In this document: piece after piece, positions 50,810 through 58,330 of the stretch
Layout: each line of letters begins with the position of its first letter
Position numbering within the stretch: the first letter of the stretch is position 1
Origin: Verrucomicrobiota bacterium
GTDB taxonomy: Bacteria > Verrucomicrobiota > Verrucomicrobiia > Chthoniobacterales > Terrimicrobiaceae
DNA: 64,000 bases
Direction: 5' to 3'
NCBI GenBank assembly: GCA_017305195.1
Contig: JAFKMU010000037.1
Location: forward strand, 1 to 64,000
Position numbers and translations under genes: made by a program
The notes under the pieces: generated by a model
The model's database searches: none
The model's input: the letters and a program-made list of their open reading frames with translations, nothing else
What the model was told of the DNA's origin: nothing

Positions 50810-51408
<599 letters not shown>

Positions 51409-51414
51409 CACGCC

Positions 51415-52227
51415 GTGACCGGGCATCTCGCGCTTGAGCTGGTTCGCAGACCGAATGGCCCTACGCATATCGGCCGGCAGTCCTTTCATGCGCCCATGCA
51501 CCTGAGCAAGCCCTACTGGGACGGCAATCACCTGATCGTGCAGATGGTGAACTGTACGGCGGGGCTTCTCTCCGGCGATGTCATCGACATCTCCGTGCGG
51601 GCGAGGGAGGGCGCCTCAGGCGTATTGACAAGCCCCAGCGCCCAGCGCGCCTTTCGCGTGCTGGACGGAGGCGAGGTGGCGACCGTCCATCAGACATTTA
51701 CTGTCGAGCCTGGCGCGTGGCTGGAGGTCTGCCCGGAGATTTTCATCCCGCACAAGGGGGCGCGCCTGCGCCAGGTCACCCGGATCGAGGCGGCGGCCGA
51801 GTCGGAATCGCTTTTTGTGGAATCCCTCGCGCCCGGACGCGTTGGCTCGGACGAGTCCTATGCCTTTTCCGGTCTCGAGTGGGCGGCCGAGGTGTATGTG
51901 GACGGTCGGTTGCAGGTCCGCGAGAGGTATGACCTCTCCCCGGAGCAAAAGAGCATTGAGGCCCTGCGAAAGGTGTTCCCCGACGCCTACTATGCCTCGT
52001 GCTATCTGGTGACGCCCCGGCTGGGCGGACTCGCCGACTTGCGGACGGTGCTGCGCGACTCCTCCACGACGGATCTTTTCATGGCCGCCAGCGTCGTGGC
52101 ATCCCATATCGCGGCCATTAGAGTGCTGGCTTCCGGCAGCATCGCCCTGAGGCGGGGCATCCGGACGGTGAGAGAGTATTGCTATGGAGCGCTGGGGCGG
52201 GAGATGCCCGACTGGCGCAAGCTTTAG
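51415..52227 (+). CDS. ureD: Urease accessory protein UreD
   Basis: A 270-residue UreD/UreH scaffold with [26 protein letters not shown] and [11 protein letters not shown], followed by the [12 protein letters not shown] segment. It begins with GTG, 6 bp after the ureG stop. In many operons ureD comes first; here it is last (ABCEFGD order). Its stop overlaps the convergent yacG stop by 3 bases. Confidence 0.9.
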
Positions 52228-52439
52228 GGCTCGTCGTCGGTGCGCTTGAGTTCGTTCTCGTCGAAGTCAGCGAGCTCCTCCAGGTCCTCCGCCGTGATCG
52301 GGCTGGCGATGCGATATTCCTCGCCGAGCCAGCGGCCGAGATCGACCAGCTTGCACCGTTCGGAGCAAAAAGGCGCGTACGGCTGGTTGAACCAGGGGCC
52401 CTTTTTTCCGCAGGTGGGGCAGGTGTTCTCTTTGGACAT
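52224..52439 (-). CDS. yacG: Zinc-ribbon DNA gyrase inhibitor YacG
   Basis: A 71-residue protein starting [11 protein letters not shown]. Four Cys ligands C7, C10, C25 and C29 form the YacG zinc ribbon (CPTC and CSERC), and [16 protein letters not shown] is the family tail. It inhibits DNA gyrase in Escherichia coli. The frame extends 25 codons upstream, but the zinc-ribbon family begins here. Confidence 0.92.
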
Positions 52440-52536
52440 GGAGGTATTTACGAACCTCCGCCAAATTCCGTCAAGCAGCCCCCTTCTCGTTTGCGCGTCA
52501 TTGCTTCCGATCACTCTCGCGCTATAAGCTTCCCTC

Positions 52537-54904: not shown

Positions 54905-56113
<1,209 letters not shown>

Positions 56114-56155
56114 GGGTGTGTGGAATCCGGGGAAGGTTTGAAATCGAGAGCGAAA

Positions 56156-56175
56156 TATCAGATTTAAAACTGATA
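56156..56175. promoter_or_regulatory. Palindrome between the G3E GTPase and Fur/Zur genes (candidate Zur/Fur box)
   Basis: TATCAG and CTGATA are perfect inverted arms around an 8-bp AT-rich spacer. The site lies in the divergent promoter region, 43 bp from the GTPase start and 36 bp from the regulator start. AT-rich palindromes with TATCA/TGATA are common Fur-family targets. A control site for both genes is likely. Confidence 0.55.
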
Positions 56176-56210
56176 CTTGACTCTCAATTGGCGTCAACAG
56201 AAATTCCGGC

Positions 56211-56588
56211 ATGGCCTATAAAACCCGCCAGCGCGATGCGATCTGGCAAGTGATCGTATCGTCGGATCGACCGCTCACGCCCTTGGACATTTGCGAGGAG
56301 GCGGGGAAATCCGTGGAAGGCATCGGCATCGCCACCGTTTACCGGGCGCTGAAGCAGATGATCGCGGAGGGCCAGGTGCGGCACATCGACATCCCGGGCG
56401 TCCAGCCTCACTATGAAGCGGCCTCGCGCAGTCATCATCATTTCTTCCTCTGCGAGCGTTGCCAGCGTCTGTTCGATCTGGCGGGCTGCCTGCGTGGCAT
56501 CTCGGGCCTGCTGCCAGATGGCTTTCGCATGAAGAGGCACGAAATCGTCATCTACGGCGATTGCGAGAGCTGCGCGGGTAAGGCGTAG
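56211..56588 (+). CDS. zur: Fur-family transcriptional regulator, probably Zur
   Basis: A 125-residue regulator: winged helix (about 10-75) with [12 protein letters not shown], then a metal-sensing region with [10 protein letters not shown] and a structural-zinc CESC near the C-terminus. The HHH-CxxC pattern occurs in both Fur and Zur. The divergent G3E zinc chaperone and the downstream anchor-M protein, a class linked to zinc uptake elsewhere, favour Zur; Fur or PerR cannot be excluded. Confidence 0.8.
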
Positions 56589-56725
56589 GTCTCCCGGCTG
56601 TTACTGACAGCGAGTGTCGCGCTCCGGGGCTCGGGAAGCCATGCGCTTTTCCCGTAAGCCATCCCGTGTTCTCCGACCTTTTGTGAAGCCAGGGAACCGT
56701 GGTATGGAAAATTTTCCTGCTGGGG

Positions 56726-56762
56726 AATTTGATAATGAATATTGACAATCAATTATCAAATT
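56726..56762. promoter_or_regulatory. Long inverted repeat upstream of the anchored zinc-associated protein
   Basis: AATTTGATAAT (56726-56736) and ATTATCAAATT (56752-56762) are perfect 11-bp arms around a 15-nt spacer that contains a TTGACA hexamer. The arms contain the TGATA/TATCA element also present at the Zur divergent site. It lies 46 bp before the anchor-M gene. Confidence 0.55.
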
Positions 56763-56780
56763 TAGAAACAAGTGAGAATC

Positions 56781-56797
56781 GGTTATCAAAAATAACC
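56781..56797. promoter_or_regulatory. Second palindrome before the anchor-M gene
   Basis: GGTTAT and ATAACC are perfect arms around CAAAA, ending 10 bp before the ATG. It resembles the GTTAT/ATAAC form of Zur sites. Together with the longer repeat at 56726-56762 it gives a two-site arrangement. Confidence 0.5.
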
Positions 56798-56807
56798 CTG
56801 CAATCTC

Positions 56808-57566
56808 ATGAAAAAATACAAGCTGCCCCTGTTGTCCGGTCTCGTCGGAGCCGGAATGATCCTCTCCGCTGGAGTGTCTCAAGCCCAAGCCATCTACACC
56901 TCTGGCCACGGAGACCTTGGTGTCGAATACACGCCGGGCGAGGCGGAATTTGTGGCGCACTGGCACATTGGCTCGGGCGCGGTGGTTGATGGCGTGCCTT
57001 TGACGGAGGAGCAGGAGTTTGCGCCTGAGGCTCTCGCTGCCCAACTCGGCACGCAGGCGGCGGTTTCGTCCTCTGCTGTGGCCAGCGCGCTTGGCGTATC
57101 CACCGGGACGATGGTTTTTCGCACGGGAAATGCGGCCTACCCGCCGAATGTGGGATTTGGGCTTGAGGAGGTGGGGTCGGATTCGGAGTGGCTGGACGGA
57201 AGCATCACTCTGACCCTGACCGGATGGACCGGGCCGGGATCCATTGCGGTGTCGCAGACGATTGCAAATGTCGGCACGTTTGTCTGGTTCTCCAGTGATG
57301 CATCGAAGACGCAGAACAGCAACGCCTGGGATTTCGGCGTGGGCGGACATCAGCATCTCGACTGGTGGTTCTCCGAGGCGGGGAATTACTCGGTGACCTT
57401 CACCTGGACCGGCACCTACATCGGCGGCGAATCGCCCGTGGCGGTCAGCGGGTCCGGGGCCTATGAGTTTCAGGCCGTGCCCGAGCCGGGGACATGGGCC
57501 TTGCTCGGCGTGGCCTTGCTGATCGGAATGGCGGTTTATCGGCGGCGGGTGCTGCCGGTAAGTTGA
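56808..57566 (+). CDS. Choice-of-anchor-M domain protein with PEP-CTERM anchor
   Basis: A 252-residue exported protein: signal peptide (to SQAQA), then GHGDLGVEY near the start. AHWHIG and GGHQHLDWWFSEAG are present, and the last 30 residues carry VPEPG, a hydrophobic helix and RRR. The GH-D-L opening and H-Q-H-L-D-W-F/W motif match the choice-of-anchor-M (actinobacterial surface-anchored) domain found near zinc/manganese ABC transporters. Here a PEP-CTERM tail replaces the actinobacterial wall anchor. Probably a surface or periplasmic zinc-binding protein. Confidence 0.75.
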   Translation: MKKYKLPLLSGLVGAGMILSAGVSQAQAIYTSGHGDLGVEYTPGEAEFVAHWHIGSGAVVDGVPLTEEQEFAPEALAAQLGTQAAVSSSAVASALGVSTGTMVFRTGNAAYPPNVGFGLEEVGSDSEWLDGSITLTLTGWTGPGSIAVSQTIANVGTFVWFSSDASKTQNSNAWDFGVGGHQHLDWWFSEAGNYSVTFTWTGTYIGGESPVAVSGSGAYEFQAVPEPGTWALLGVALLIGMAVYRRRVLPVS

Positions 57567-57581
57567 TCCACGGTGGAGAGG

Positions 57582-57608
57582 CCGGTCCGCACATTATGTG
57601 CGGGCCGG
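57582..57608 (+). other. Hairpin enclosing the pseudopilin start codon
   Basis: A 12-bp stem (57582-57593 and 57597-57608, one G-U pair) with a TTA loop. The A of the ATG at 57596 is in the loop, and the rest of the start codon is in the stem. It could limit translation unless opened by upstream ribosomes, or attenuate transcription. Confidence 0.5.
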
Positions 57609-58330
57609 ATTCCGGCTCAAGAGCGAGGCGGCTCGTCGGGGGCTTTACCCTGGTGGAGTTGCTCATGGTTGTCGGCGTGGTGGGGATCCTGGTCTGCCTC
57701 GCCGTACCCGTCATATCCTCGGGCGCGATGGCGGCGAATCGCGCCAGGTGCGCCTCCAATCTGCGCCAGATCGGTCAGGCCATCATGCTTTATGCGGGGG
57801 ATCATGATGGAGTATTGCCTGTTACTTCCCATAGCACGGGGGACTCCAAGCTGAAACTCAATGGGAAGTGGCTGAACTCGATCGAGTATAGCTGGATCTA
57901 CCTGCTGGCCGATTACCTCGATAACGTCGACGAGGTGCGAGTGTGTCCGGCGGATGAAAAGTCACGCCAGAGCCAGATTCTCCAGATGAATGCGACGAGC
58001 TATCTGCTGAACGACACGGTGTTCGACTCCGAGACCTATGGCCGGTTGCAGAGTCTCCCGCATCCCTCGCGGCTGATGCTGGCCTTTATCAGCAATCGCC
58101 CGGTCAGCCGGACGTGGGACCATGCCCACTGTGCGAACTGGACGACCTGGCCGGCGCTGACGACGGATATCGCCGTTGACCGGCATCGGACCGGCGCGCG
58201 CGCCGGATCGAAGCTCAAGGGATCAGCCAATTACCTCTTCGCCGACGGACACGTGCAGAACCTGCAGGCGACGGAGGTCAAAGCGATGCTTGAGCGTGGA
58301 GAGAGGCCCTGGCTGCCCTCAGCAAACTAG
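57596..58330 (+). CDS. Prepilin-type protein with H-X9-DG motif (pseudopilin)
   Basis: A 244-residue protein. After a short basic leader the sequence GGFTLVELLMVV is a perfect type IV prepilin cleavage site, then the hydrophobic helix, CASNLRQIGQAIMLY, and the C-terminal NYLFADGHVQNL with a His upstream (H-X9-DG). The ATG lies in a hairpin; an in-frame TTG at 57563 overlapping the upstream stop (TTGA) is an alternative coupled start. It is 29 bp from the anchor-M gene and probably cotranscribed. Confidence 0.82.
   Translation: MCGPDSGSRARRLVGGFTLVELLMVVGVVGILVCLAVPVISSGAMAANRARCASNLRQIGQAIMLYAGDHDGVLPVTSHSTGDSKLKLNGKWLNSIEYSWIYLLADYLDNVDEVRVCPADEKSRQSQILQMNATSYLLNDTVFDSETYGRLQSLPHPSRLMLAFISNRPVSRTWDHAHCANWTTWPALTTDIAVDRHRTGARAGSKLKGSANYLFADGHVQNLQATEVKAMLERGERPWLPSAN

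Follow-up and report, generated by a model that had tools for sequence, protein, structure and literature searches.

A predicted zinc-starvation gene module with a dedicated histidine-site pseudopilin in Verrucomicrobiota

Exported proteins of the choice-of-anchor-M type (anchor-M) have been described in Corynebacterium diphtheriae, where zinc causes thermal shifts in ZnuE, ZnuF, and ZnuG; ZnuE is required for growth in low zinc, whereas ZnuF and ZnuG lowered growth in the absence of the transporter, and a sequestering or zinc-storing role has been proposed for them (PMC12445094). In that report, the histidines of these proteins matter in growth tests, but their part in in vitro binding was left unsettled. 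In Anabaena, ZepA is a Zur-regulated PEP-CTERM zinc exoprotein with homologs reaching the PVC superphylum; 15- and 16-bp Zur-like palindromes precede zepA genes, and the delivery step was left open in that study (PMC10957091). Here, we describe a gene set in a window of 64,000 nucleotides (the whole stretch analyzed; positions 1 to 64,000 of contig JAFKMU010000037.1, Verrucomicrobiota assembly GCA_017305195.1), which comprises the zinc metallochaperone gene zigA and genes for a FUR-family regulator, an anchor-M protein with a PEP-CTERM tail, and a pseudopilin. Judging from gene content and motifs, the locus is probably a zinc-starvation module. Capturing zinc with a PEP-CTERM protein is not in itself new, given the ZepA precedent and the zinc-binding anchor-M proteins of C. 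diphtheriae, but a dedicated histidine-site pseudopilin as the second partner of a predicted zinc-starvation surface module is.

The window anchor-M protein resembles ZnuE, ZnuF, ZnuG, and CmrA of C. diphtheriae in being exported and in carrying an HxD/HxH pair around approximately 150 residues. Those proteins are zinc regulated, have sortase-type or other Gram-positive anchoring, and neighbor ZnuABC (PMC12445094), whereas the window protein has a PEP-CTERM tail and has ZigA and the pseudopilin as neighbors. No zinc ABC transporter was found in the module locus, which does not qualify as a Znu cluster of the C. diphtheriae type; the three ABC-3 permeases of the genome are all on contig C11, and the module is on C3. 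The locus is also like the ZepA systems, which share an exported PEP-CTERM zinc protein, contexts with FUR, COG0523, and TonB-receptor genes, and Zur-like palindromes upstream (PMC10957091), and the C-terminal PEP-CTERM domain expected of a ZepA is present. Nevertheless, we did not file the anchor-M protein under ZepA, since, judged by the published description of the motif (H-X2-9-H-F/Y-H), its first histidine stands 16 residues before HWH (H34, then H51-W-H53), and there is a further C-terminal HxH. A pilin is not named among the ZepA contexts in the accessible sections of that paper. ZigA/YciC-type COG0523 chaperones under Zur (PMC2770081) are like the window ZigA, which passes the equivalog cutoff and is divergent from a FUR-family gene, but their published contexts are mainly znuABC, zur, and zinc-independent enzyme paralogs rather than anchor-M and pilin genes. 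Finally, the window pilin shares a prepilin signal and the DUF1559 profile with type IV pilins and type II secretion pseudopilins of the DUF1559 type, but differs from them in its invariant H79 and DHxH and in its gene linkage to anchor-M.

The four genes stand in the order zigA (54905-56113, minus strand), FUR-family gene (56211-56588), anchor-M gene (56808-57566), and pseudopilin gene (57596-58330), the last three on the plus strand. An earlier note on this stretch had described a COG0523 zinc chaperone divergent from a Fur/Zur gene and, downstream, an anchor-M protein with a PEP-CTERM anchor and a pseudopilin, with palindromes in the divergent region and before the anchor-M gene. These observations are confirmed, and the interpretation given to them is partly supported. 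ZigA, whose gene lies to the left of the start at 56113 that the note had assumed for the module, scored 657.6 bits against NF038288 (cutoff, 600), with matches to PF02492 and PF07683, and carries the CXCC metal motif of COG0523 as GCICC. The profile search that the note had preset as a refuting test places the third protein in the anchor-M family (NF038134 choice_anch_M, 68.3 bits; cutoff, 55), and its PEP-CTERM tail is recognized by PF07589 (24.8 bits) and TIGR02595 (23.2 bits), both above cutoff. The fourth protein, from which the note drew nothing, scored 38 bits against PF07596 (DUF1559; cutoff, 23.3) and 19.7 bits against the prepilin signal TIGR02532 (cutoff, 16.3), with PF07963 under its cutoff (18.2 against 21.2 bits). 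The genome (5.1 Mb, 94.7% complete) has a single anchor-M match, 7 cobW matches, and 65 pilin matches.

The pseudopilin is the most distinctive part of the module and is set apart from its paralogs. In a survey of 288 genomes of the phylum, with at most nine candidates scored per genome, 15 pilins scored from 284 to 367 bits, and the next best scored 132.7. Fourteen of these 15 adjoin anchor-M genes, and the fifteenth abuts a ZigA-type gene. The group is present in 13 of the 22 genomes with an anchor-M match versus 1 of the 266 others, and the linkage spans eight families (as labeled in the genome set). Residues H79, H176, and H178 are invariant in all 132 aligned pilins, which were chosen by score (the window pilin, those of 11 loci, and the 120 top scorers among 797, with 7,998 candidates scored). 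D175 and W182 are likewise invariant. Among the 29 of 64 own-genome paralogs that were compared, H79 and H176 occur in one each and H178 in none, about half of them aligning as gaps at H176 and H178. Such invariance, together with the near absence in paralogs, suggests a site. Locus by locus, DHxH is present in 32/32 module pilins and P..H in 30/32. The pseudopilin model gave a weak fold match to type IV pilins, and Foldseek searches of the PDB with the anchor-M and pilin models gave no match at an E value of ≤0.001. The anchor-M-linked pilins form a separate high-scoring group, which speaks largely, if not in full, against the pilin being a partner of PEP-CTERM proteins at large. Among the papers listed in searches of the openly accessible literature, none dealt with a zinc-linked pseudopilin.

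An anchor-M match at an E value of ≤1e-4 is present in the 22 genomes mentioned (21 above cutoff), and 33 loci came from scanning named genomes. Spartobacteria bacterium LR76 (95% identical) has the same four genes, and a metagenome-assembled genome labeled Blastochloris sp. has the FUR, anchor-M, and pilin genes plus a ZigA-type gene. Three loci labeled Planctomycetota carry the pilin (L179, L197, and L198); within the fetched stretch of a fourth (L190), it was not found. Of the 53 distinct loci compared, the pilin is present in 32, a TonB receptor stands beside anchor-M in 15 (all without the pilin), none has both, and 6 have neither (Fisher P = 9e-9, the loci being related); the window locus has no TonB receptor. 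A ZigA-type gene was found at 14 of the 53 and a FUR gene at 13, with five sequences behind either profile (the profile for TonB receptors rests on six, one of them checked with Pfam). Both this count and the box tests described below leave out six duplicate loci (L167, L170, L176, L177, L178, and L200) and five without an anchor-M profile match (L061 and L201 to L204; L061 had a 26-bit match in the 288-genome search), while L199, a 3-kb contig without anchor-M, is counted among the 53 but excluded from the 52 loci of the box tests; the close relatives L063 and L166 are both counted, and some genomes contribute two loci. Within the 288-genome set, families f6, f7, and f13 have the TonB arrangement and other families the pilin arrangement, and the division may therefore follow lineage.

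At 27 of 31 loci with both genes, the pilin frame overlaps the anchor-M frame or lies almost against it (gap of 0 to 8 bp, stop-to-stop frames). In the window, a strong hairpin (57583-57607; 11 pairs, shuffle z-score of -3.1) lies just past the anchor-M stop, with its loop touching the pilin start codon. LR76, with GTG as the start codon, retains the arms of this hairpin, which may couple the translation of the two genes. A second gene set (L202:3093-8360, L203:2752-5247, and L061:12360-17225) combines a lower-scoring HxH pilin with an exported protein starting with HDH or HSH and, by inspection, a further exported protein (PEP-CTERM in two cases); the set may represent a sister metal module. 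By inspection too, a likely TonB receptor stands beside the HxH pilin in L202 and L061, a co-occurrence that speaks against a simple swap rule. A gene for a protein of approximately 800 residues adjoins anchor-M genes at five loci (L044:6362-8743, L047:10350-12836, L048:9051-11576, L051:5495-7930, and L057:7291-9609), with a spermine-synthase domain in the L047 copy; a metallophore role for it is only a guess. In L050 (5795-9316) and L052 (5103-8676), we found a FAD oxidoreductase, a protein that Pfam does not recognize and that L041 has as well, and a FeoB-like GTPase containing Gate domains (Pfam run on the L052 copies), placed beside the pilin/anchor-M pair in L050 and before it in L052. 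This set is possibly an inner-membrane metal transporter.

The anchor-M protein, with a signal peptide assigned by inspection, has five histidines, located in HGD (34-36), HWH (51-53), and HQH (181-183). The first and last of these belong to the motifs GHGDLG (H34 and D36) and GGHQHLDW (H181 and H183) already pointed out in the note, and 144 residues lie between HGD and HQH. Residues H34, D36, H51, H181, and H183 are invariant among 39 aligned relatives, and H53 nearly so; D36, H181, and H183 are still invariant when a wider selection of 22 anchor-M proteins is compared. The AlphaFold2 model (pLDDT of 91.7) consists mainly of beta structure, with a helix at the C terminus, and VIA-align gave middling Z scores, the best being 6.7 (CueO). 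By analogy with the proteins of C. diphtheriae, the anchor-M protein is predicted to bind zinc through its HxD/HxH histidines. The surface zinc capture in a Gram-negative form that the note had proposed is consistent with zinc binding by this type of protein in C. diphtheriae (PMC12445094), but as a PEP-CTERM system it has a precedent in ZepA (PMC10957091).

The palindromes of the two intergenic regions are four copies of a single one, TGAnAAT-N2-ATTnTCA, and they exceed chance. One predicted box, TGATACTTGACTCTCA (56171-56186; 10 of 12 consensus bases), is located in the zigA-FUR intergenic region; three others precede the anchor-M gene, namely, TGATAATGAATATTGA (56730-56745; 10/12, in a block conserved with LR76), TGACAATCAATTATCA (56743-56758; 12/12), and TGAGAATCGGTTATCA (56773-56788; 11/12, with 13 of 16 positions identical in LR76). 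The only exact match to TGANAATNNATTNTCA in the 5.1-Mb genome is the box at 56743-56758. When as many as two mismatches are allowed, the genome has 64 sites, 4 of which fall within 56171-56788, a count that is partly circular because the pattern was derived from this locus. Four one-mismatch sites lie elsewhere in the genome, three inside called genes (L098, L099, and L101) and the fourth (L100) before a LysR-like gene (by inspection; gene calls were simple). Compared with LR76, the block 56722-56762 is identical at 40/41 positions versus 91/133 in the upstream rest of the intergenic region, and the block 56148-56186 at 39/39 versus 23/34 nearby, with block limits set after inspection of the alignment; the latter also contains a palindrome TATCAG-N8-CTGATA (56156-56175). 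Relatives have boxes of the 16-bp type (TGATAATCTATTATCA in L168, and TGATAACTGATTATCA before ZigA in L060) or, in others, a 15-bp alternative, TGCAAAT-N-ATTTGCA. The arm TGNNAAT ranked first of 30 letter orders (18 loci, with 60 shuffles; runners-up, 12, 8, and 5).

The regulator belongs to the FUR family (PF01475, 63.7 bits), with CERC and CESC as its structural-zinc pairs, and that part of the note's Fur/Zur call stands. Naming it Zur from sequence was rejected, as no Zur model recognizes it and the site-2 cysteine is absent; it scored above the cutoff of no NCBIfam equivalog, and its best model scores, far under cutoff, are those of PerR and Irr. A role as Zur is predicted from gene context. 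The authors of the ZepA study likewise considered that such a regulator gene could not be named from sequence alone (PMC10957091). A profile search found six FUR-family matches in the genome. Matches to the regulator at an E value of ≤1e-12 occur in 44 of the 288 genomes, and neighbors of its orthologs include divergent ZnuABC (L240), divergent ZigA (L242), and an adjoining TonB receptor (L236). Six anchor-M genomes are represented among the 20 ortholog neighborhoods inspected (G015, G119, G157, G158, G174, and G186), each with the regulator ortholog away from the anchor-M locus. Similar-looking exported proteins of approximately 430 residues adjoin regulator orthologs at L235:5881-7194 (without a Pfam match) and L243:3277-4563. 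Two other FUR-family genes of the window's genome, near the ends of contigs C14 and C18 (L102 and L103), stand after genes that by inspection resemble metal-pumping P-type ATPases.

In the zinc-starvation module that we propose, the FUR-family regulator, as a predicted Zur, would sit on the TGAnAAT-N2-ATTnTCA boxes when zinc is plentiful and, when zinc is low, would lift repression from zigA, from its own gene, and from the pair of anchor-M and pseudopilin genes. ZigA would hand scarce zinc to cytoplasmic client enzymes, while the anchor-M protein, exported and processed by the exosortase system (one exosortase was found in the genome), would bind surface zinc through HxD/HxH. The pseudopilin would be processed and assembled by a type-4-filament or type II secretion machine of the cell, would hold a second zinc site (H79, H176, H178, and perhaps D175), and would pass zinc from the anchor-M protein across the envelope, a step that in the sister arrangement would fall to the TonB receptor. 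Outer-membrane passage of scarce zinc is known mainly for TonB receptors. A pilus-based zinc route in many Verrucomicrobiota and some Planctomycetota, with a zinc-binding pseudopilin replacing the TonB receptor under a Zur-like switch, is speculative and in our estimate unlikely; we put the same low trust in its central step, a pseudopilin assembled by a type-4-filament machine that would carry zinc from the PEP-CTERM anchor-M catcher across the outer membrane. That a pilin with three invariant histidines apparently stands in for a TonB receptor makes a pilus-linked metal route a concrete and testable idea and, if true, would assign a function to one of the pilins that form such large families in these bacteria.

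Several findings weigh against this scheme. The regulator scored 16.7 bits against the Zur model NF008646, which requires 167, although this is weak evidence because the model was built on Zur of the E. coli type. When the regulator is aligned with 2o03, alanine and phenylalanine occupy the positions of the site-2 ligands of Mycobacterium tuberculosis Zur, which we take to be Cys76 and His83, so that both the cysteine and the histidine are absent. An obvious zinc gene is absent from most of the 20 ortholog neighborhoods, only three of them have a predicted box (score of ≥13) near the ortholog (L235, L245, and L252), and the anchor-M loci L043, L047, L054, L056, L180, and L182 have a different FUR type. 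No intergenic box of at least 10/12 was found at the ABC-3 loci (L095 and L096) or the cobW pair on contig C53 (L097) of the genome. The note had suggested searching other Verrucomicrobiota for the same gene set with Zur boxes; the set does recur, and boxes are enriched over shuffles at 20 of 52 loci (P ≤ 0.05; P ≤ 0.01 at 13), P values that are optimistic because the pattern was picked after viewing part of the loci, but 32 of the 52 have no significant box. Moreover, H34 is missing in 5 of the 22 anchor-M proteins (L044, L047, L048, L051, and L055), and, of 16 pilins just under the score step, three have DHxH and two EHxH, with two of the three DHxH pilins adjoining surface proteins of another kind.

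The histidines of the pseudopilin could instead be structural, the protein acting as an export adaptor that helps a type II secretion-like machine bring anchor-M to the surface without carrying zinc for uptake. We regard this as possible, if somewhat doubtful: the close spacing of the two frames, the eight PF00437 matches in the genome, and the pilin-like profile and fold would suit an adaptor, but three histidines conserved throughout the aligned pilins and nearly missing from paralogs suggest a site, and at the TonB-receptor loci an anchor-M protein of this kind is placed although the pilin is missing. It is not very likely that the anchor-M protein stores zinc or denies surface zinc to competitors rather than feeding uptake, as ZnuE, of the same type, is needed in low-zinc growth (PMC12445094) and the scarcity chaperone ZigA is in the same gene set, although ZnuF and ZnuG, with the sequestering role proposed for them in the same report, and the lack of a zinc ABC transporter at the module would agree with storage.

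A response to another metal (manganese, nickel, cobalt, or iron) through a non-Zur member of the FUR family would fit the PerR and Irr scores of the regulator and the likely urease accessory genes upstream in the window (named by inspection). We hold it to be quite unlikely, given a ZigA above the cutoff of a zinc-named equivalog, the zinc binding of anchor-M proteins elsewhere (PMC12445094), and the resemblance of the boxes to published Zur motifs before zepA genes (PMC10957091). That the pilin is a chance neighbor is extremely improbable even with pilin genes as abundant as they are in these genomes (65 matches in this one); the score step, the linkage in eight families, and the presence in 13/22 versus 1/266 genomes rule it out.

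Upstream of the module, the window contains a cobW-type match (50821-51333) and two genes named by inspection, which are likely to be the urease accessory gene ureD (51415-52227) and a gene for a YacG-type zinc protein (52224-52514, minus strand).

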